A stretch of 64,000 nt of DNA, taken from Rhodopirellula sp. SM50. GTDB lineage: Bacteria; Planctomycetota; Planctomycetia; Pirellulales; Pirellulaceae. Below, one piece after another: positions 20,233 through 30,203 of the stretch. The position numbers and the translations under genes were made by a program. The stretch is from NCBI RefSeq assembly GCF_002289565.1, contig NZ_NTFY01000014.1, positions 123,016-187,015 of the forward strand, given 5' to 3'. The notes under the pieces are model-generated. The model was not told where the DNA came from. It worked only from the letters and a program-made list of their open reading frames with translations, and searched no databases. Position 1 is the first letter of the stretch. Each line of letters opens with the position of its first letter.

Positions 20233-23200
20233 ATGCCCGACCGCAACACCATCGAGACGATTTTCCTGGAGGCCGTTGAACTGCCGGCGGACCAGCTTGC
20301 CCCGTTCCTCGATCAGCGATGCGGTGATGACGAGCCGCTACGGGACGCGGTGATGGAACTGATCCGAGCGGATCGGCAAGCCGGCGACGGGGCGTTTCTA
20401 CGGTCGCATCTTTTTAAGACCGACGGCCACAACGACGACGCGTCAACGCTTGGCGACACGTTCAATCAAGACGACACGGATCGATTCAGAATCCTCCGTG
20501 CCTATCGCCAGGGAGGACTCGGCGAAGTCCTGCTGGCCCATGACCGACAACTCGATCGCGACGTCGCGATCAAACAAATCAAACCGCGCTGGGCCGACAG
20601 CGAGGAGGCACGCCAGCGATTCATTCAAGAAGCCAAGGTGACCGGTCGGCTGGAGCACCCGGGGATCGTGCCCGTCTATGCGATGGGCACCTGGCCGGAT
20701 GGCCAACATTATTACGCGATGCGGTTTATCGAAGGTGACACGATGAAAGACACCATCGATCGCTACCATCGACCGCCGCAACCCTCCGATTCCGCCGACG
20801 TCAAAGGGCTGCAACTGCGCGAACTGTTGTCACGATTCGTCGATGTCTGCAACACGATTCAGTACGCCCACAGCAAACGTGTCCTGCATCGTGACATCAA
20901 GCCGTCCAACATCATGGTCGGCCCCTATGGTGAAACACTGGTCGTCGACTGGGGACTGGCCAAATTGCTGGACGAACCGGTCGACGAATCGATGACGGCC
21001 GATCTGGCCCGAGCGATTGCCAAGGGAAGCGGGTCCACGCCCACACGCGTCGGCGGCACCGTGGGCACGCCGCAATACATGAGCCCCGAACAAGCCCAAG
21101 GGAAACTCGAGTCCATCGGAACTCGGACCGACGTCTATTTGCTGGGCGCAACCCTGTACCAAATCCTGACCGGCCGCCCGCCGCATCAGGATGATTCGAT
21201 CTCGCGGTTGCTGAAAAAAATCGCCGCTGGAACCCTCACCCGGCCACGCCAGATCGCTGCCGACATCGCGCCGCCGCTGGAGTCGATCTGCTTGAAAGCG
21301 ATGGCCACCGATCCCACCGACCGATACGCCGATCCGAACCACATCGCCGACGACGTCAATCGCTGGATGGCCGATCAAGCGGTCTCGGCCCACACCGATT
21401 CCGTTTCCGTTCGCGTGAATCGCTGGATGCGACGACACCGCACCGCCACCAGCACCCTCGCCGTGACGCTTCTGCTGTTGGCCATCGGCGGCGTCTCCGG
21501 GTCGATCCTGTGGAATGTGGCGAACGTCCGAAAACTGCAAGCCGAACAGGAACGGCGCAGCAAGCGACTGGAACTCGAAGCCAAAGATCGACAACGGCTC
21601 GCGGAATTGCAAACCACCGCCGACGCCGCGGAGAATCTGGCCGCGATCGAGGTGTCTCGCGATCGATACACCTCCGCGTTGGACGTCTTGCGCAATACGC
21701 TGCCCGGCGTGCGATCGGAACCTCGACTGATCGAACAAGCCGATCGAATCGAACAGAAAGCGAATCGCATCGAGGCGCTCGTCGATTTTTACACCCTCGC
21801 CGAAACCGTCGAGCAACAAAACGTACTGAGCCGAGACACCAAAGCCCTGTTGGCCTGCACCACCGCCCTGAAACGACTGGGCATCTGGGACCGCGCCGAT
21901 TGGTGGACCGGGCTGCCCGATCAAGACCTTTCGGCTGAACAGATCGATCGCCTTCGATGGGATGTTTATCAGCAGTTGATGTTGATGGATGCCATGCTGG
22001 TCAAATCGATCGGTGTCCGGCTGACCGGCGAAGGTCGCGTCGCAGGCCCGAGCGCGTTGCTCCGTGCCGCCGGTCGATTGCTGACGACCAATGCCGGTAA
22101 AGCCGAAGCGAAGGCGGTGCTGGTGGTCAGTGACCGCATCGATCGGTTTCGACTGTCCGAATCCACCCGCTTGTATCGATCGATCGCAAACATGCGACTC
22201 GGCACTGGCGCGCGTTTGCAAGGAAAGGATTTGGGACAAACACGCAACGGCGCCGATGCGCACTCGCTGGCCGTGCTCAGCATGATCGCCGCGATCGACC
22301 CCAGCTTTGAATTGGTCTTTCGCGGCTATCAGGGTGACGACGCACTGCTCACCGCGCGTGATCTGTTCGGACGCTCGGCCGCCCTGGGGCCGAATTATTA
22401 CGGCACCCATTTGGGGCTCGGGCAAGTCCACTACTTGATCGCCCAGCGGAGCGGCGCCGAGCGTCCCGACGATCTGCATTGGGAAGACTTGGCACCCGCG
22501 CTGCACGCCTTTGGTCAGTGCATCACGTTGTTGCCCCAGCGCTGCTTTGCCTTTGCCGATCGTTCCAGCGTCTATCGTTGGCAGGCCCAATTGATCGCCG
22601 ACGACGAACGTTACACCCCGCCCGAACGCCAGCGCCGCGCGACCGAACGGTTGCAATGGAGTCTCGAGGATGCCCAGCGGGCGATGCAGTCCTACGACGT
22701 TCATCCCTGGGTCGGATGGCAGGCCGGTCAGGCGTACGCCGAACTGTCGCAAGTCGATCGAGCCCTGCGGCTTTGGATCCGAACCGCCATCGATACCTAT
22801 CCCCTGGGAGAAATTGCCGACGTGCGTTTCGTCGCCGTCGACGACCTGCGGGGACGGGCACAAATCGGCGACTGGTTGCAACAACAACTCGCCCGCACCG
22901 AATCGCAAATTCGTTTCAACCTGGTCGATGGCTTCACCGCTTTGGCCGGCGTCCGGCTCAATCAAGCCCGCCAGGACGAGGCGCTCGCGGCGATCGAATC
23001 GGCGTTGGCCATCGATCCGAATTTTCTCAACGCGCGGGCAATCCGTGGCATGATCTTGTTGCGCGAGCAAGCTTTCGCATCGGCCGAGTTCGATTTCCAA
23101 GCGGTGTGTGATGCCGATCCCGATCATCCGTTGGGGTCATTCGGCCTGGCGCAATGCTGGGAGAACAACGGGCGATTGAGTGACGCAGCAGCGATGTTTT

Positions 23201-24024
23201 TGATCGCGGAACGTGCCGCACTGACGGGCGAAAATCAGGCCGCCGCGGCACTGGGACATTGCCGCACCGCAGCCTTGTCCGGCGACCTGGTCGCGGCGGA
23301 GGCTGCCGTCGCACGCGCGATCGACGTCGAACCCGCCTGCGATCTATTCTCCACCGTTCGCTCCATCGCGACCGAATTGAGTCGACGAAAACGCTCTCCA
23401 GGCGTCGACCAAACGCAAATCGTCACGCTCGAAACGTTCATCAAATCGCTCGCCAAGCTGCCCCGGGCGACCAAGATCGAAGTGATGCCCCCGGCCGATT
23501 CCCGACAAACGACCGCGGCCTCGATCCTCAATGGCGACTTCGAACTCGATTCGATCCGCTACTGGAATTCCGTTTCCGGCGCAAAGTGGGAAACCACCCC
23601 CGGGTTTGCGTCTGCCGCCCGAGTCAGCCCGGACGCGCACTCGGGAAACCGCTCGCTGAAGATCACCGCGACCGCTGCGGACCCCGACAGTGCGGACCCC
23701 GACAGTGTCGCCAACGCCTCGGGACGAACCGGCCAGGAGTTTTCCGTCGTTGCCGGTCAACCCTACTCGCTTTCGTGTTGGGTCAAAGCCGAACAACTTG
23801 CCGCCGGCGCGATGCGAATTTTGGGGCCCGCCGAGCAGACGCTGATCGAATTCGATTCGGGCAGTTACTCCTGGCGTCGGGTGGCTGCAGCGTTTCAGGT
23901 GACGCAAACCGCCGACGGCCGACGCGTTGATGCCGGCACCATCGTCCCGGTCCGGATCCAGATCGTCGCCAGCGGTGCCGGAACGCTGTGGCTGGACGAT
24001 TTCATGTGCCAGAGCACGCCGTAG
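20233..24024 (+). CDS. Transmembrane Ser/Thr protein kinase with TPR-like and carbohydrate-module-like regions
   Basis: 1263 residues. A kinase domain spans ~85-380: glycine loop RQGGLGEV, Lys114 in VAIKQIK, HRDIKPSN with Asp221, VVDWGLAK (Asp239, with WG in place of FG) and GTPQYMSPEQAQGK. One transmembrane helix follows at ~406-428, then a coiled coil (~430-460), a helical region with TPR-like units to ~1070 (ALAAIESALAIDPNFLNARAI), and a C-terminal beta-sandwich of ~165 residues (ILNGDFELDSIRYWN ... GTLWLDDFMC) that resembles CBM4/9/22-like modules. The module would be outside, so the protein could link extracellular sensing to cytosolic phosphorylation (inference). Planctomycete kinases are often encoded with ECF sigma factors; the nearest one here is 5.4 kb away. 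Confidence 0.92.
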   Translation: MPDRNTIETIFLEAVELPADQLAPFLDQRCGDDEPLRDAVMELIRADRQAGDGAFLRSHLFKTDGHNDDASTLGDTFNQDDTDRFRILRAYRQGGLGEVLLAHDRQLDRDVAIKQIKPRWADSEEARQRFIQEAKVTGRLEHPGIVPVYAMGTWPDGQHYYAMRFIEGDTMKDTIDRYHRPPQPSDSADVKGLQLRELLSRFVDVCNTIQYAHSKRVLHRDIKPSNIMVGPYGETLVVDWGLAKLLDEPVDESMTADLARAIAKGSGSTPTRVGGTVGTPQYMSPEQAQGKLESIGTRTDVYLLGATLYQILTGRPPHQDDSISRLLKKIAAGTLTRPRQIAADIAPPLESICLKAMATDPTDRYADPNHIADDVNRWMADQAVSAHTDSVSVRVNRWMRRHRTATSTLAVTLLLLAIGGVSGSILWNVANVRKLQAEQERRSKRLELEAKDRQRLAELQTTADAAENLAAIEVSRDRYTSALDVLRNTLPGVRSEPRLIEQADRIEQKANRIEALVDFYTLAETVEQQNVLSRDTKALLACTTALKRLGIWDRADWWTGLPDQDLSAEQIDRLRWDVYQQLMLMDAMLVKSIGVRLTGEGRVAGPSALLRAAGRLLTTNAGKAEAKAVLVVSDRIDRFRLSESTRLYRSIANMRLGTGARLQGKDLGQTRNGADAHSLAVLSMIAAIDPSFELVFRGYQGDDALLTARDLFGRSAALGPNYYGTHLGLGQVHYLIAQRSGAERPDDLHWEDLAPALHAFGQCITLLPQRCFAFADRSSVYRWQAQLIADDERYTPPERQRRATERLQWSLEDAQRAMQSYDVHPWVGWQAGQAYAELSQVDRALRLWIRTAIDTYPLGEIADVRFVAVDDLRGRAQIGDWLQQQLARTESQIRFNLVDGFTALAGVRLNQARQDEALAAIESALAIDPNFLNARAIRGMILLREQAFASAEFDFQAVCDADPDHPLGSFGLAQCWENNGRLSDAAAMFLIAERAALTGENQAAAALGHCRTAALSGDLVAAEAAVARAIDVEPACDLFSTVRSIATELSRRKRSPGVDQTQIVTLETFIKSLAKLPRATKIEVMPPADSRQTTAASILNGDFELDSIRYWNSVSGAKWETTPGFASAARVSPDAHSGNRSLKITATAADPDSADPDSVANASGRTGQEFSVVAGQPYSLSCWVKAEQLAAGAMRILGPAEQTLIEFDSGSYSWRRVAAAFQVTQTADGRRVDAGTIVPVRIQIVASGAGTLWLDDFMCQSTP

Positions 24025-24426: not shown

Positions 24427-25038
24427 ATGAAACGCCAAACCCTCTGCACCGTCGCCGCCGCCACCCTGTTCACCCTCGCTCTGGCGGCTTCGCCGGCTGA
24501 AGTTTCCGCCCAATCGGCCGGATCTTGGGTCGACATCGCCCGCGGACGTGTCGGAGCCGGCGCCAACGCCGACGGCATGATCCAAATCGCCAAAACCCGC
24601 AGCAGTTCCAAAAACGGGGTCGATTTCGGTCACGGATTCGCACTCGGGGCCGGCCCCAACGGGATCGCCCTGAGCAACTCGATCGGTGTCGGCGGTGGCC
24701 AAGCCGGGGCGGCCCACAACGTCCAACTGAATCTCGGACGCGGCGGTGCCCACGTCAGCCACGGCGGAGTGGTCACCCAGGGCGGCAACCGACGCGTGAT
24801 CAGCGGCGGTCACACCGGCACGTCGGGCGGCCAAGTCTACGGCGGCAGCCATTCGACCGGATACGGACAACACACCAAAGCGTACTCCAAGAGCCAGACG
24901 CGACAGTGGGGTGGCCAGGTTTATCAAGGCCAGGTCAATCAATACCGTGCCTACCAAGGCCAACCCAACGCGACCCGTTCCCGCTCGATGCCCGCCCGAG
25001 TCATCCGTAGCGGCGGCATCCGAATGTTCGGCCGCTAA
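24427..25038 (+). CDS. Small secreted Gly/Ser-rich protein, paralog 1
   Basis: 203 residues from the ATG at 24427; longer frames upstream lack support. A signal peptide is clear (MKRQTLCTVAAATLFTLAL, cleavage after VSA). The mature part is rich in Gly, Ser, Gln and His with pseudo-repeats (GFALGAGPNGIALSNSIG, GGHTGTSGGQVYGGSHSTGYG) and ends in a basic tail ARVIRSGGIRMFGR. The gene at 26521-27138 has the same layout and a similar tail. Proteins of this composition are often surface or matrix components. A terminator follows at 25058. Confidence 0.82.
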   Translation: MKRQTLCTVAAATLFTLALAASPAEVSAQSAGSWVDIARGRVGAGANADGMIQIAKTRSSSKNGVDFGHGFALGAGPNGIALSNSIGVGGGQAGAAHNVQLNLGRGGAHVSHGGVVTQGGNRRVISGGHTGTSGGQVYGGSHSTGYGQHTKAYSKSQTRQWGGQVYQGQVNQYRAYQGQPNATRSRSMPARVIRSGGIRMFGR

Positions 25039-25361: not shown

Positions 25362-25997
25362 ATGACCCTTCGACTCTTCAGCGGCACCGCCGCAACCCTG
25401 CTCGTCGCGTTTGCCGTCTTCGCCCAGTCGCCACCTGCGGCCACCGAGCCGGAACCGGAACTGACCCTCCAACCCGTGCCGACATTGCTGCGTCTGCATC
25501 TGCCCATCCTGGGTGAACAACGCGGCGTGCTGGTCGAGGCCGTCGCCGCGGGGTCGGCCGCGGCCGGCACCGGACTCCGTGCCGGCGACGTCATCCTGGA
25601 AGCCGGCGGGCGGGCAATCATCGCCGGCGATGCACTCCAGCGGCCGGACCCCGCGTTTCCGATCGTGGTGTTGCGCCGCGGCCGCACACGAGTGCTATAC
25701 CCTGGGGCAATGGAAAACGGTTTCATGGACCAGATGTTTACGCCCCCGGTTCCCGCCGATCAGCCTGGCGGAACCAGCGTCAGCTCTTCGGCGATCCGTT
25801 CCGGTTCTGGCAGTCGCGCCGTTTCGGTCAGTCGCGCCGGAGATCAATTCGCGATCGAAATGTCGTTGCCGGAATTGGCCGAGGGCCCGATCCGATTTCG
25901 AGGCACGGCGGCGGAAATCGAGCAACAACTGCGACAGAGCACGCTCGGCGAAGCGGTCAAACGCGAGGTCCGAACGGTGCTCCGTCAGTCTCGCTAG
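25362..25997 (+). CDS. Secreted PDZ-domain protein
   Basis: 211 residues with a signal peptide (MTLRLFSGTAATLLVAFAVF, cleavage near AQS). A PDZ-like domain spans ~40-115: LGEQRGVLVEAVAAGSAAAGTGLRAGDVILEAGGRAI then ALQRPDPAFPIVVLRRG. No protease triad is present, so this is not a DegP-type enzyme; it may bind C-termini of envelope proteins. The C-terminal half is Ser/Gly-rich followed by a helical tail. It sits between the two Gly/Ser-rich secreted protein genes. Confidence 0.8.
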   Translation: MTLRLFSGTAATLLVAFAVFAQSPPAATEPEPELTLQPVPTLLRLHLPILGEQRGVLVEAVAAGSAAAGTGLRAGDVILEAGGRAIIAGDALQRPDPAFPIVVLRRGRTRVLYPGAMENGFMDQMFTPPVPADQPGGTSVSSSAIRSGSGSRAVSVSRAGDQFAIEMSLPELAEGPIRFRGTAAEIEQQLRQSTLGEAVKREVRTVLRQSR

Positions 25998-26520: not shown

Positions 26521-27138
26521 ATGAAACGCTTCACAACCACCTTCGCCGTTGTCGCCATCCTCGCCACTGCTGCATTCACCGGCAACGCCCACGCCCAAGT
26601 CTCCGCGTCCAGCTACTCGACCGGCGGCACCGCCATCTCGAGTGCTTACGGACGAGGCAACACCCGACTGAATTCCTCGGCGGTCGCCAGCGGCGGCGGC
26701 TACGCCCGGTCGACGATGACCGGCCGCGGAGTCAACGGCGGTTTCGCCAGCGGCAACAGCCGAGCCGTTTCCCACGGCGGTGTCGCGATCAGCAACGGCA
26801 ACTCGTCGGCCAACGGCTGGGGCGCCCGCTCACACTCTAATTCCTACGCTCGCACCGTCGGCGGATTTGCCCGCAGCAACAGCAACGCGGTCGCCAACGG
26901 CAACTGGGCCGACGCCCGCTCCAATGCCGTCACCCGAACTTGGGGCACTTACGGCAGTTCGTCGTCCGAAGCGATCGACAATCGCCGATCCTCCAATCCG
27001 GGCTACCCCGTTTACCCGACCAACACGCCCAGCTACACCGGCGGCAACTACAGCAGCGGAACGACGGCATCGGTGTACCAAAACTCGACACCACGAGCGA
27101 CGGTCTTCCGCAGCCGTAGCGTCCGACGCGGTTGGTGA
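26521..27138 (+). CDS. Small secreted Gly/Ser/Asn-rich protein, paralog 2
   Basis: 205 residues from ATG 26521, preceded by a weak ribosome site (AGGAACAGACCC). Signal peptide MKRFTTTFAVVAILATAAF, cleavage after AHA. The mature chain is built from short Ser/Gly/Asn/Ala units (SSAVASGGGYARST, GFASGNSRAVSHGGVAIS, GFARSNSNAVANGNW) and ends PRATVFRSRSVRRGW. Like paralog 1 it has MKR at the start, a similar length, an SHGGV motif and an Arg/aromatic tail. It may be a surface matrix protein. The frame upstream to 26230 is a repeat element, not coding. Confidence 0.82.
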   Translation: MKRFTTTFAVVAILATAAFTGNAHAQVSASSYSTGGTAISSAYGRGNTRLNSSAVASGGGYARSTMTGRGVNGGFASGNSRAVSHGGVAISNGNSSANGWGARSHSNSYARTVGGFARSNSNAVANGNWADARSNAVTRTWGTYGSSSSEAIDNRRSSNPGYPVYPTNTPSYTGGNYSSGTTASVYQNSTPRATVFRSRSVRRGW

Positions 27139-27300: not shown

Positions 27301-27441
27301 GCCCAATACCGCTCAGTTAACATGAATGAGGGGGCCCGGACGCTGGCGCGAACCGGCTGATATCAAACGAATATCAGCCGTTTGGCGCGAGCCTACGGGC
27401 CCTCATCTGAAGAAACGACGCTTAACTTAGCGGTATTGGGC
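27301..27441. repeat. Inner left inverted repeat flanking the graspetide locus
   Basis: 141 bases starting GCCCAATACCGCTCAGTTAA and ending ACTTAGCGGTATTGGGC, so its own ends are inverted. The interior has ATCAGCCGTTTGGCGCGAGC opposed by GCTGGCGCGAACCGGCTGAT. Its reverse complement occurs almost base for base at 30062-30203. The structure resembles a MITE. Confidence 0.9.
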
Positions 27442-27445
27442 TTTA

Positions 27446-27587
27446 GCCCAATACCGCTAAGTTTAGCTCGACGGGGAGGCCGCTCGCGCTGGCGCGAACC
27501 GGCTGATATCAATCGTTTATCAGCCGTTTGGCGCGAGCCTACGGGCACCGAGTTGAGGAAACCACGCTTAACTTAGCGGTATTGGGC
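27446..27587. repeat. Diverged tandem copy of the inner element
   Basis: GCCCAATACCGCTAAGTTTA to ACTTAGCGGTATTGGGC: same ends and same central ATATCAA..TATCAGCCGTTTGGCGCG core as 27301-27441, but a different left interior. It lies between the left inner repeat and the graspetide precursor gene. Confidence 0.88.
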
Positions 27588-27731
27588 TTTAGCCGCCCAC
27601 TGTCGCTGCGACGCAGCGATCGGGAGTCGCCTCAAGGCAAAACACCAACGGATTGCCGAATCCATTTTTACTTCTGCCCGCTCGATCCTAAACTAGTAGA
27701 TACCGATCCCCCTCTTACCCCCGGCTCCGCC

Positions 27732-28514
27732 ATGTCTGCCCCCCATCCCAACAACAACCCGGCCGTGGACGCGATCGTCGAACAAGCCCTTCGCGGTGAA
27801 GTCCCCCGTCGCGATTTTCTGCGCCGACTGGTCGTCGCCGGTCTGTCTTCGGCAGCCGCCTACCAGGTGCTCAACGAAACCGCTGCGTCGGCACAGTCCG
27901 GTGGCTCAGGACGCCTCACCACCTTTGCACTCGGTGAAGAAGGCAACCCGCCCAGCCTGCCGCCACAAACTCGCCCGCCCAATCAGCAAGCCACAACGCT
28001 GGCCGTCGGCGAAGAGTCGTCCAAGCCACCGACCAATCAAATCACCACCAAAGCCGTCGGCGAAGAGTCGACCAAACCGCCGACGCCTCAAGCCACGACC
28101 TATGCCGTCGGCGAAGAATCAACCAAACCGCTGACCCCTCAAGCCACGACCTATGCCGTCGGCGAGGAATCATCCAAGCCGCCGACCCCTCGGCCCACGA
28201 CCCAAGCCGTCGGCGAGGAATCAACCATGCCGCCGACGACGCTGTCCTACGGATTGGGTGAGGACGGACGACGTGCGACGACGTTGGCCGTGGGTGAAGA
28301 AGGCCAACCGACGCCTAACCCCATCACGACCAACCGCTCCGGCGAAGAGTCTCAAGTCACGACCCATGCAGTGGGTGAAGAATCCAACCGCACGCCAAAT
28401 GCCACCACAATGGCCTGGGGCGAAGAAGGCTCGACCAAGAAGCCGCAATTCAAAGTGCCCTCAAGTCCCTTCAAAAACATCCCCCGGCCGTGGAAAAACT
28501 TTCGCCGTTGGTAA
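27732..28514 (+). CDS. Multi-core graspetide (plesiocin-type) precursor with Tat signal
   Basis: 260 residues from ATG 27732. The N-terminus has a twin-arginine signal: RRDFLRRL at 26-33, a hydrophobic stretch to ~44 and an ASA-type cleavage site near residue 54. The rest is a repeat array: ten copies of TTxxxxEE (starts at residues 63, 88, 105, 122, 139, 156, 183, 199, 210, 225; typical form TTYAVGEES) and a degenerate eleventh, LSYGLGED, at 171. Copies at 88-156 are spaced exactly 17 residues and joined by TKPPTPQ-like linkers. TTxxxxEE is the core motif of plesiocin-type group 2 graspetides, in which an ATP-grasp enzyme makes side-chain esters between Thr and Glu. An ATP-grasp gene follows after 12 bases. 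The tail FKNIPRPWKNFRRW is basic and aromatic. Modification and export are inferred. Confidence 0.88.
   Translation: MSAPHPNNNPAVDAIVEQALRGEVPRRDFLRRLVVAGLSSAAAYQVLNETAASAQSGGSGRLTTFALGEEGNPPSLPPQTRPPNQQATTLAVGEESSKPPTNQITTKAVGEESTKPPTPQATTYAVGEESTKPLTPQATTYAVGEESSKPPTPRPTTQAVGEESTMPPTTLSYGLGEDGRRATTLAVGEEGQPTPNPITTNRSGEESQVTTHAVGEESNRTPNATTMAWGEEGSTKKPQFKVPSSPFKNIPRPWKNFRRW
27918..28427 (+). repeat. Core-peptide repeat array (11 units) within the precursor
   Basis: Codes for the TTxxxxEE units at residues 63-232. Units 2-6 have a fixed 51-base period; units 1 and 7-11 vary in linker length. Unit 7 (LSYGLGED) lacks the Thr pair and the second Glu; unit 9 is TTNRSGEE and unit 11 TTMAWGEE. Confidence 0.92.
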
Positions 28515-28526
28515 GTGGTTCCGAAA

Positions 28527-29387
28527 ATGAACGCGCGCAACACAGACCTGGTGATCGTCGGCGGTGAATCCGACCCCAACACCCAACGCATCGTCGACCA
28601 AGCGCACCTGCGCGGCGTCGATTATTTTTTCTGGGACACCGACCGCCCGGGAGCTCGCCAGATCGCCTGGGATTTTCAAACGCCCGAAATTGATTTCGGC
28701 GACGTGGCGGTGCAGCCTGCGGCGATGTTCCTGCGTTTTAACGTGTTTGATTCCGACGCGGTCGCCAATCACGCCGCCTACGATGTCGCCGAATCATTCG
28801 CATTGGCTTGGCCAAACATTCGATTGCTCAACCGAAGCACCGTCGGCGATGGAAACAACAAGTCACGCAATTTGGTCCGCGCCCGCGACTGTGGGTTTGT
28901 GATTCCACAAACCACCGTCCTGGGTGACCTGTCGCCACTGGAAACGATTCCTGACCCGAATCACAAGATCATCAAACCGCTCGCCGGTGGCGACCATGCG
29001 TTCATCGTCCGGGACGTGATCGAAGATCCGTCACGATTGATGGAACGGACGCCACAATTCGTCCAAGAACGACTCGACGGCGAAAACGTGCGGGTCTTCT
29101 CGATCGGCGGAAACCTGCACGCGTTTCACCTGCAAACGACCGAAATTGATTACCGGACCGACGACAACGTGGTCGTCCACGCGATCGATGTCCCGGCCGA
29201 ACTCGTCCCGTCGATCCATCAATTGGTCGAACAAATCGGTTTCGATTACTGCGCGCTGGACTTCCGCTGCCGAGACGACTTTCGCGATCCAGTGTTCTTG
29301 GAAATCAACTCGTTCCCGATGTTCGTGGCGTTCGATGACGCCTGCGAAAACAAGCTTGCCGACGCGATTTTGGAGTTTTTGGTCTGA
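28527..29387 (+). CDS. RimK/MvdD-like ATP-grasp ligase (graspetide synthetase)
   Basis: 286 residues from ATG 28527; a GTG at 28515, touching the precursor stop, would add four residues. The order of segments fits graspetide ATP-grasp ligases: a pre-ATP-grasp domain (LVIVGGESDPNTQRIVDQA), then LLNRSTVGDGNNKSRNLVRA with GFVIPQTTV, the ATP-binding lysine in HKIIKPLAGG, FVQERLDGENVRVFSIGG and the Mg-binding VFLEINSFPMFVAFD. The family activates a carboxylate as acyl phosphate and joins it to a hydroxyl (ester) or amine (amide). Given the adjacent TTxxxxEE precursor I infer Thr-Glu ester formation. The first 12 bases after the precursor leave little room for another promoter. Confidence 0.9.
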   Translation: MNARNTDLVIVGGESDPNTQRIVDQAHLRGVDYFFWDTDRPGARQIAWDFQTPEIDFGDVAVQPAAMFLRFNVFDSDAVANHAAYDVAESFALAWPNIRLLNRSTVGDGNNKSRNLVRARDCGFVIPQTTVLGDLSPLETIPDPNHKIIKPLAGGDHAFIVRDVIEDPSRLMERTPQFVQERLDGENVRVFSIGGNLHAFHLQTTEIDYRTDDNVVVHAIDVPAELVPSIHQLVEQIGFDYCALDFRCRDDFRDPVFLEINSFPMFVAFDDACENKLADAILEFLV

Positions 29388-29437
29388 AAGAGTACACTGC
29401 CGCCTGGCTTTCACCGCTATTTGCAAGGTCGGCAGGA

Positions 29438-30010
29438 ATGAATCAGCCCCCCAACGACGTCTCGATGATGCTGCGTGAACTCGGACGCGGCAACGATTCG
29501 GTCAAAGAACAACTGTTCGAACAACTCCAAAGCGAACTTCGACAGATGGCGTCGGCGCTGATGCGTCGCGAGCGCAGCGACCACACGCTGCAGGCCACAG
29601 CGCTGGTCAACGAAGCCTGTATTCGGTTGCTCGATTCCGATGCGATCGGCAACGCGACCGACCGGCGCTATTTCTTCGCCGCCGCCAACCGCGCGATGCG
29701 TCAAATCTTGATCGACCACGCGCGGCGACGGAACACCACCAAACGTGGCGGGGAGTACCAACGCGGATCGTTGGACGTCGTGCTGGAGAATTTTGAGACC
29801 AGCAACGGCTGCCGGTTCGAAGACTTGGAAGCGTCTCTGGAAGTGCTCGAGAAAGACTCGCCGCGTCAGCGCGAAGTCGTCGAATTACGGTTTTTCTCGG
29901 GATTGTCGATTCCCGAAACCGCCGAGGTGCTCGGCGTCAGCGAGGGGACCGTCGAACGCGATTGGAGACTGGCCCGTGCGAAGTTGTATCAACAACTTCG
30001 CGAGGAATAG
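29438..30010 (+). CDS. ECF-like sigma factor (Sigma70_ECF, PF07638 type)
   Basis: 190 residues. Region 2 is LFEQLQSELRQMASALMRRERSDHTLQATALVNEACIRLL with DRRYFFAAANRAMRQILIDHARRRNTTKRG; this form, with LQATALVNEA and ILIDHARRR, is typical of the PF07638 group expanded in planctomycetes. Region 4 at ~140-185 holds the helix-turn-helix IPETAEVLGVSEGTVERDW. It starts 50 bases after the ATP-grasp gene on the same strand, so it is probably co-transcribed and may control the graspetide genes or their export. No anti-sigma factor is adjacent; in planctomycetes such sigma factors are commonly linked to Ser/Thr kinases, and one lies at 20233. Confidence 0.92.
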   Translation: MNQPPNDVSMMLRELGRGNDSVKEQLFEQLQSELRQMASALMRRERSDHTLQATALVNEACIRLLDSDAIGNATDRRYFFAAANRAMRQILIDHARRRNTTKRGGEYQRGSLDVVLENFETSNGCRFEDLEASLEVLEKDSPRQREVVELRFFSGLSIPETAEVLGVSEGTVERDWRLARAKLYQQLREE

Positions 30011-30061
30011 AACGCCATACCCACCGATGGCACGGGCCTACGTGTTGGTGTGCAGGCTTTA

Positions 30062-30203
30062 GCCCAATACCGCTAAGTTAAGCGTCGTTTCTTCAGATGA
30101 GGGCCCGTAGGCTCGCGCCAAACGGCTGATATTCGTTTGATATCAGCCGGTTCGCGCCAGCGTCCGGGCCCCCTCATTCATGCTTAACTTAGCGGTATTG
30201 GGC
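30062..30203. repeat. Inner right inverted repeat flanking the graspetide locus
   Basis: 142 bases; reverse complement of 27301-27441 apart from one extra base and a few substitutions. It begins 51 bases after the sigma factor stop. Preceded by TTGGTGTGCAGGCTTTA, the family C end also seen at 27284 and 56149. Confidence 0.9.

Follow-up and report, generated by a model that had tools for sequence, protein, structure and literature searches.

A 64,000-nt stretch of the Rhodopirellula sp. SM50 genome (assembly GCF_002289565.1, contig NZ_NTFY01000014.1, positions 123,016 to 187,015; hereafter the window) carries a gene for a 260-residue repeat protein followed by genes for an ATP-grasp ligase and an extracytoplasmic function (ECF) sigma factor (Table 1). 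A sequence-only reading of this DNA had proposed that the first two genes form the locus of a graspetide, a ribosomally made peptide cross-linked by an ATP-grasp enzyme. Most known graspetides are small peptides with rings, produced from a leader plus a short core; corallotide is a large exception. The gene order given in that reading was borne out, with the ligase ATG 12 bases 3' of the stop codon of the repeat gene and the sigma factor gene 50 bases after the ligase; the repeat protein is referred to below as the precursor. In the window, the precursor and ligase genes share a reading frame, with a single TAA between them and a GTG directly after it (28512-28526); the two frames also agree, with one stop between them, in L003, L004, L005, L006, L009 and L017.

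Conservation of the repeat units and of the gene pair

A motif scan located ten exact TTxxxxEE units in the precursor, starting at residues 63, 88, 105, 122, 139, 156, 183, 199, 210 and 225 (start-to-start spacings of 25, 17, 17, 17, 17, 27, 16, 11 and 15 residues), together with a variant unit, TTLSYGLGED, at residue 169. Both the ten units and the additional copy had been noted before; the copy had been called degenerate but is itself conserved, in the form TTLSYGLGE[DE], in L002, L003, L004 and L016. The third position of the exact units reads, in order, F, L, K, Y, Y, Q, L, N, H and M. Shuffling the residues of the precursor 2000 times gave a mean of 0.04 TTxxxxEE motifs and a maximum of 2, and the scan found the motif in no other window open reading frame (ORF) of at least 60 aa.

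Codon comparisons with related loci showed strong purifying selection on the five unit residues (TT/G/EE). Compared with the nearest named relatives, L002 and L003, the TT/G/EE codons (n = 50) carry 0 nonsynonymous differences over 113 sites, with proportions of synonymous differences (pS) of 0.41 and 0.36, while the spacer codons have proportions of nonsynonymous differences (pN) of 0.08 and 0.10. Against the more distant L004 and L016, the unit codons (n = 45) show one change each (pN 0.010 and 0.010) and the spacers a pN of 0.275 and 0.240. For the last twelve residues of the precursor, pN is 0.071 against L016 and 0 against the other three relatives.

This pattern extends to a pooled set of 48 precursors (P0121-P0169 without P0165, whose N-terminal domain differs). 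A looser unit pattern, fixing only [ST][ST] and [ED][ED], matches 418 units in these proteins, with 5 to 13 per protein. The pattern leaves position 6 free, where the frequency of Gly is 1.00 after rounding; E7 and E8 also round to 1.00, T2 is at 0.98 and Ala occupies position 4 in 77% of units. Position 3 is highly varied, with 3.47 bits over the 410 units that match a stricter pattern in which T2, G6 and E7 are fixed as well, and L, R, Y, Q, M, F, K and H are all common there. The C-terminal end is R-W in 46 of the 48 relatives, and the two exceptions, P0137 and P0156, come from short contigs (~1.1 and ~0.7 kb) and appear truncated or misassembled. Unit number turns over between relatives: in L009 (6991-7809), a long spacer-plus-unit segment, SAKPPLTQPRDGAEDGVRPQPTTLAVGEE, is present as four identical tandem copies, a recent expansion.

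The sequence-only reading had suggested searching planctomycetes for TTxxxxEE proteins beside ATP-grasp genes, and such pairs were found. A scan of one genome per species, which may leave out near records of the window's own genome, yielded 11 named ligase loci, and in all of these a TTxxxxEE ORF with 6-10 exact units adjoins the ligase gene, upstream and on the same strand. Within the genus, the ligase is present in 13 of 14 genomes (own included) and a repeat ORF stands next to it at all 13 loci, that of L020 being cut by the contig end; as the named and genus sets overlap in part, their counts are not to be summed. Across the taxonomic family, ligase matches at 1e-10 occur in 10 of 149 genomes. 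Eight of these are strong and all have a repeat ORF, while the two weak matches have none within the stretch fetched. The window's genome has one match each for the repeat gene and the ligase gene, and named near relatives of the ligase come from Stieleria (P0002, P0003), TBK1r (L002) and a metagenome-assembled genome, Phycisphaera sp. RhM (P0001); the host is taken to be Stieleria-like.

Table 1. Coordinates of the features of the precursor-ligase locus within the window
Feature	Position	Strand	Basis or remark
Ser/Thr protein kinase with TPR region, upstream end of the block	20233..24024	+	Pkinase PF00069, 7.5e-32
Gly-rich protein A, 203 aa, inferred start MKRQTLC, predicted secreted	24427..25038	+	signal peptide by eye
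Small PDZ protein, hydrophobic N-terminus	25362..25997	+	weak DegP/HtrA-type PDZ match below cut-off, residues 51-93
Ser/Gly/Asn-rich protein B, 205 aa, inferred start MKRFTTT, ends RSVRRGW, predicted secreted	26521..27138	+	
Precursor, 260 aa, ten TTxxxxEE units and one variant unit	27732..28514	+	ORF and motif scan, selection test
Leader (residues 1-54), predicted to be a Tat signal peptide cut at ASA|QS	27732..27893	+	RR.[FL], AxA-type site
Twin-arginine motif RRDFLRR, residues 26-32	27807..27827	+	comparison with relatives' leaders
Unit 1, TTFALGEE	27918..27941	+	motif scan
Unit 2, TTLAVGEE	27993..28016	+	motif scan
Unit 3, TTKAVGEE	28044..28067	+	motif scan
Unit 4, TTYAVGEE	28095..28118	+	motif scan
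Unit 5, TTYAVGEE	28146..28169	+	motif scan
Unit 6, TTQAVGEE	28197..28220	+	motif scan
Variant unit, TTLSYGLGED	28236..28265	+	kept in near relatives
Unit 7, TTLAVGEE	28278..28301	+	motif scan
Unit 8, TTNRSGEE	28326..28349	+	motif scan
Unit 9, TTHAVGEE	28359..28382	+	motif scan
Unit 10, TTMAWGEE	28404..28427	+	motif scan
Conserved C-terminus, PWKNFRRW	28488..28511	+	R-W end in 46/48 relatives
ATP-grasp ligase, 286 aa	28527..29387	+	ATG 28527, alternative GTG 28515; profile, structure and family searches
ECF sigma factor	29438..30010	+	Sigma70_ECF PF07638, 1.8e-62; TIGR02999

Family resemblance of the ligase

Plesiocin, the Plesiocystis pacifica product of PsnA and PsnB, belongs to group 2 of the graspetides, a group defined by the TTxxxxEE motif. 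The window ligase contains all three segments that had been taken as typical of graspetide ligases (NRSTVGDGNNKSR, KIIKPLAGG and FLEIN), and a single-sequence phmmer search of the PDB returned PsnB (7drm) as its best match (5e-13). A profile built from 25 related ligases retrieved six solved graspetide ligases, namely PsnB (8.4e-24), CdnC (7.9e-13), AMdnB (1.4e-11), PruB (9bou, 3.3e-9) and MdnB and MdnC (near 5e-8). The seventh and only other match was an inositol kinase (0.0065); neither RimK nor glutathione synthetase, with which the ligase might have been expected to cluster if the graspetide assignment were wrong, appeared at E <= 0.01.

In comparisons with curated models, all 25 ligases match the graspetide maturase model TIGR04187 as well as TIGR04185; TIGR04184 is matched by 22 of them and the RimK model by 19. 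The best model for the window ligase is TIGR04187, with 49.9 bits at a cut-off of 350, followed by TIGR04192 (29.8), RimK (26.8), TIGR04185 (25.7) and TIGR04184 (24.7), all far below cut-off. Foldseek analysis of an AlphaFold2 model of the ligase (predicted local distance difference test score of 92) placed PsnB chains at ranks 1-15, except for AMdnB at rank 8, with ArgX as the first non-graspetide enzyme at rank 29 and RimK from rank 36. Four residues that presumably have an ATP/Mg role, K150, D245, E259 and N261, are invariant in the 25 sequences. In a phylogenetic tree, the ligases form a compact family in a clade of their own on a long branch; PsnB is not placed with this family, and the deep forks are weak. 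The locus does not fall plainly into the plesiocin-type group 2: it has the tandem TTxxxxEE units of that group and PsnB is the best PDB match of its ligase, but the ligase stands in a separate clade and scores 49.9 against 350 bits.

Alternatively, the ATP-grasp enzyme could carry out RimK-like chemistry, extending the Glu pairs with amide-linked amino acids; the repeat protein would then be a structural protein that is secreted and has no rings. The 19 RimK matches are compatible with this, as is the window ligase scoring as well with the RimK model as with the MvdC and MvdD models, and by VIA-align Z the modelled fold appears equally close to RimK and PsnB. We consider this explanation very improbable, as TIGR04187 is the best-scoring model and the only one of the two that all 25 ligases match, RimK is absent from the PDB profile search at E <= 0.01, and two adjacent Thr at a fixed spacing from the Glu pair would be left unexplained. 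In addition, three other places in the genome exceed the RimK cut-off and score 17-29 bits with a profile of the ligase family, with which seven other planctomycete ligases near TTxxxGEE ORFs score 42-108 bits and ten without such ORFs 45-67. The window ligase shares its fold with the RimK, LysX and ArgX ligases and differs from them in sequence profile, neighbours and substrate anatomy. Due to the scores below cut-off, the VIA-align tie and a tree that does not join PsnB to the family, we infer the chemistry of the ligase from family resemblance. With this qualification, and with the precursor and ligase genes paired throughout the named and genus loci, the graspetide reading of the locus is well supported by sequence comparison.

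Leader and predicted export

Proteins exported by the twin-arginine translocation (Tat) pathway can be structured, as Tat accepts folded cargo, and Tat proofreading chaperones hold back cofactor enzymes until they are ready. The precursor leader features the motif RRDFLRR, then a hydrophobic stretch and then an AxA site shortly before unit 1; the sequence-only reading mentioned neither this leader nor the R-W end nor the conserved genes upstream. The RR.[FL] motif is common to all 48 relatives; directly before RR, 24 of the 48 precursors have G and 12 have P. Of 49 proteins (the 48 relatives plus that of the window), 47 have an AxA-type site ([AVTSG]xA), and the median distance from it to the first unit is 8 residues. 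This gap is 3 residues in eight of the 49; the value for P0140 is an artefact, a chance match having been counted as its first unit. A crude Tat test was positive for 81 of 120 listed repeat proteins versus 0 of 120 ligases, and was also positive for 7 of 43 long window ORFs, some of which are probably not genes. The genome encodes TatC, identified above cut-off at 143 bits.

The twin-arginine stretch could alternatively be a ligase-docking helix and nothing else, in which case the chain would stay in the cytoplasm. The leader is predicted to be helical, and in the part of PMC8939145 that deals with leaders, conserved residues of graspetide leaders are thought to bind the ligase, in the case of the microviridins via PFFARFL. 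The co-occurrence of RR.[FL], a hydrophobic stretch and an AxA-type site makes docking alone improbable, and in all 14 MxHPF proteins described below a PF-type motif is separate from the twin-arginine stretch, which therefore need not be the docking part there. The same part of PMC8939145 describes a Phhx(1,2)h leader motif in about half of graspetide precursors, which makes it common without being defining. This motif is present in just 4 of our 48 precursors; candidates for what the ligase grips are the leader helix and the conserved C-terminal end.

The below-cut-off TIGR04187 score, the separate ligase clade, the rarity of Phhx(1,2)h and the Tat-like leader together make an exported repeat protein a more likely product than a released small peptide. 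As a whole, the locus is best explained as encoding a Tat-exported string of ten predicted bicyclic hairpins made by a graspetide-type ligase, to which we assign a probability of roughly 0.7. Two results weigh against this explanation: the VIA-align tie between PsnB and RimK, and the curated Tat model TIGR01409, which has no match in the precursor and also favours docking alone, being one detector of Tat signals and not their definition.

By analogy with its solved relatives, the ligase would activate Glu side chains with ATP and join them to Thr hydroxyls in the cytoplasm, so that each unit would carry the two nested rings seen in plesiocin. Up to 20 esters could form, equivalent to about -360 Da, and perhaps more if the variant unit reacts. 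The cross-linked chain would then leave through Tat, and cleavage by signal peptidase would yield a 206-residue string of ~22 kDa that begins at residue 55 (21,912.7 Da as calculated for the unmodified chain). The leader suggests a reason for the use of Tat, namely that cross-linking has already made the chain rigid, and a signal peptide that doubles as the ligase leader would mean that no dedicated peptidase or transporter is needed.

Neighbouring genes, wider distribution and biological role

The precursor and ligase genes belong to a wider conserved block that also includes genes for a kinase, proteins A and B, a PDZ protein and the ECF sigma factor. The sigma gene is present at 7 of the 11 named loci and 11 of the 13 genus loci; further upstream, counterparts in the named loci were found for the kinase (6 of 11), protein A (9 of 11, by tblastn), the PDZ protein (8 of 11) and protein B (in place in 7 of 11, and elsewhere on the other strand in L008), although L011 and L012 hardly test this block because they include little upstream sequence. 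Protein A is rich in Gly (0.19) and its longer ORF matched no family among the NCBIfam models, the only models used for it; protein B is rich in Ser (0.17) and Gly (0.14) and matched no Pfam or NCBIfam family. Judged by eye, proteins A and B and the PDZ protein have Sec-type signal sequences at their N-termini. A sigma factor and a kinase framing four exported-looking proteins would suit an envelope or extracellular structure. Inverted copies of an interspersed repeat (27321-27448 and 30055-30182; 128 nt, 98% complementary) flank the precursor, ligase and sigma genes, with a third copy at 27487-27594; the repeat is MITE- or REP-like (resembling a miniature inverted-repeat transposable element or a repetitive extragenic palindrome). 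The repeat gene of L002 is preceded by a spacer of just ~200 bp.

Beyond the genus, a search of the phylum found ligase matches at 1e-6 in 21 of 392 genomes (own included). We fetched 17 loci for other planctomycete ligases, 15 from this search and two from the scan of the taxonomic family. Seven of these stretches (L045-L050 and L059), among them the six with the best E-values, contain an ORF with two or more units. The leaders in L045 and L047 consist of MxHPFxG and then a twin-arginine stretch, as in the 14 proteins of alignment A2, whereas L048 and L049 have KR[LF]F[IV]E.L instead. The MxHPFxG-led proteins thus resemble the window precursor in their twin-arginine leader, TTxAxGEEG units and, for L045 and L047, a related ligase nearby, but differ in the N-terminal MxHPFxG motif and in an R-W end that is not conserved in A2. 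In L047 (2477-3595, minus strand), units lie either side of a non-repeat middle in a protein with the MxHPF and twin-arginine leader and a related ligase near, and a further unit-bearing MxHPF protein is encoded on a different contig of the same genome (L094). In L046 (8996-9346) and L093 (genome G253), the MxHPF-Tat leader and the units are in different frames, which could reflect a sequencing error, a broken gene or a frameshift.

Among the best 120 of 133 precursor homologues, units also occur beside other domains: a tyrosinase (P0194, 4.8e-34), a 3-keto-disaccharide hydrolase (P0189, 3.6e-47) and PrcB_C (P0165, 2.8e-8). Of ten unit-bearing proteins scanned, seven had no Pfam family above cut-off. 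In P0194, P0189, P0165 and P0214, three of which end in GPFG-x, the units beside enzyme or other domains may be cross-linked tails. Cyanobacterial unit proteins, whose N-terminal parts differ, were found in Okeania (P0171 and P0175) and Symploca (P0176 and P0179).

The product could also be an ordinary secreted multi-core graspetide, with the N-terminal segment serving mainly as ligase leader and the chain, whole or cut between units, acting like plesiocin as a multivalent serine-protease inhibitor whose units offer differing loop residues to different proteases. Such a role would account for unit position 3 varying freely while T2, G6, E7 and E8 are near fixed. We regard it as unlikely, as no peptidase or peptide transporter is present among the seven block genes examined, the AxA site suits cleavage by signal peptidase, the units are also found next to enzyme domains in relatives, and a chain cut into units would not need the R-W end that nearly all relatives keep. 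Pro-rich linkers, this intact end and the Gly/Ser-rich company of the precursor favour a surface or matrix protein. The exported string would accordingly present protease-resistant hairpins on Pro-rich linkers, with freely varying loop residues, as a cell-surface or matrix component under the control of the sigma/kinase pair, although this is the weakest step of the proposal. A surface role and a multi-headed inhibitor role are compatible, and the free third residue fits an inhibitor.

Multi-unit graspetides are already known. Plesiocin is described in PMC12291112 as tetravalent, with tandem units that have two ester links each, and the portion of PMC13097080 on group 2 describes a hairpin ring-in-ring pattern, protease inhibition and loci that often include an NHLM-type transporter. 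The system described here shares the tandem units, and PsnB is the nearest solved enzyme to its ligase; it differs in having 6-10 exact units in the named loci rather than four, a Tat-type leader, a conserved R-W end and a ligase in a separate clade, and in that the seven genes examined include no transporter. Among large modified graspetide proteins, the closest precedent is corallotide, for which the corresponding account in PMC13097080 gives group 15, Corallococcus exercitus as source, a His6-CorA of ~22 kDa with five repeated motifs, a product that stays large and has collagen-like properties, KxxxD isopeptides, hydroxylation by a 2-oxoglutarate-dependent enzyme and occurrence only in Corallococcus. 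By comparison, the units here are of the TT/EE type and the genes examined include no oxygenase. In the same 2026 RODEO survey, groups 34 and 35 have long precursors with repeating motifs (PMC13097080); the survey section gives neither motif nor phylum for them, and they could include the TTxxxGEE family. In the largely open-access literature searched, for the most part through hit lists, we found no graspetide described with a Tat leader and none from a planctomycete.

A broader and more tentative proposal is that planctomycetes possess a Tat-coupled system for protein hardening, in which the ligase reads the Tat signal peptide itself as its leader and holds the chain until all units are esterified, whereupon Tat exports the string, to be incorporated into the cell surface along with the block's two Gly/Ser-rich proteins. 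TTxxxGEE would also be a graftable cross-linked tail on exported enzymes, such as the tyrosinase and 3-keto-disaccharide hydrolase, and on other proteins. If the rings form, the locus would represent a route to covalent ester-ring cross-linking of whole exported proteins and would explain Tat as the exit, given the structured cargo that it accepts; with just two small genes involved, a clear test is possible. The wider TTxxxGEE set, some of it beside enzyme domains, suggests that this chemistry is in general use as a module among planctomycetes and some cyanobacteria. A type of cross-linking so far met mainly in small peptides would then serve to harden an exported protein.

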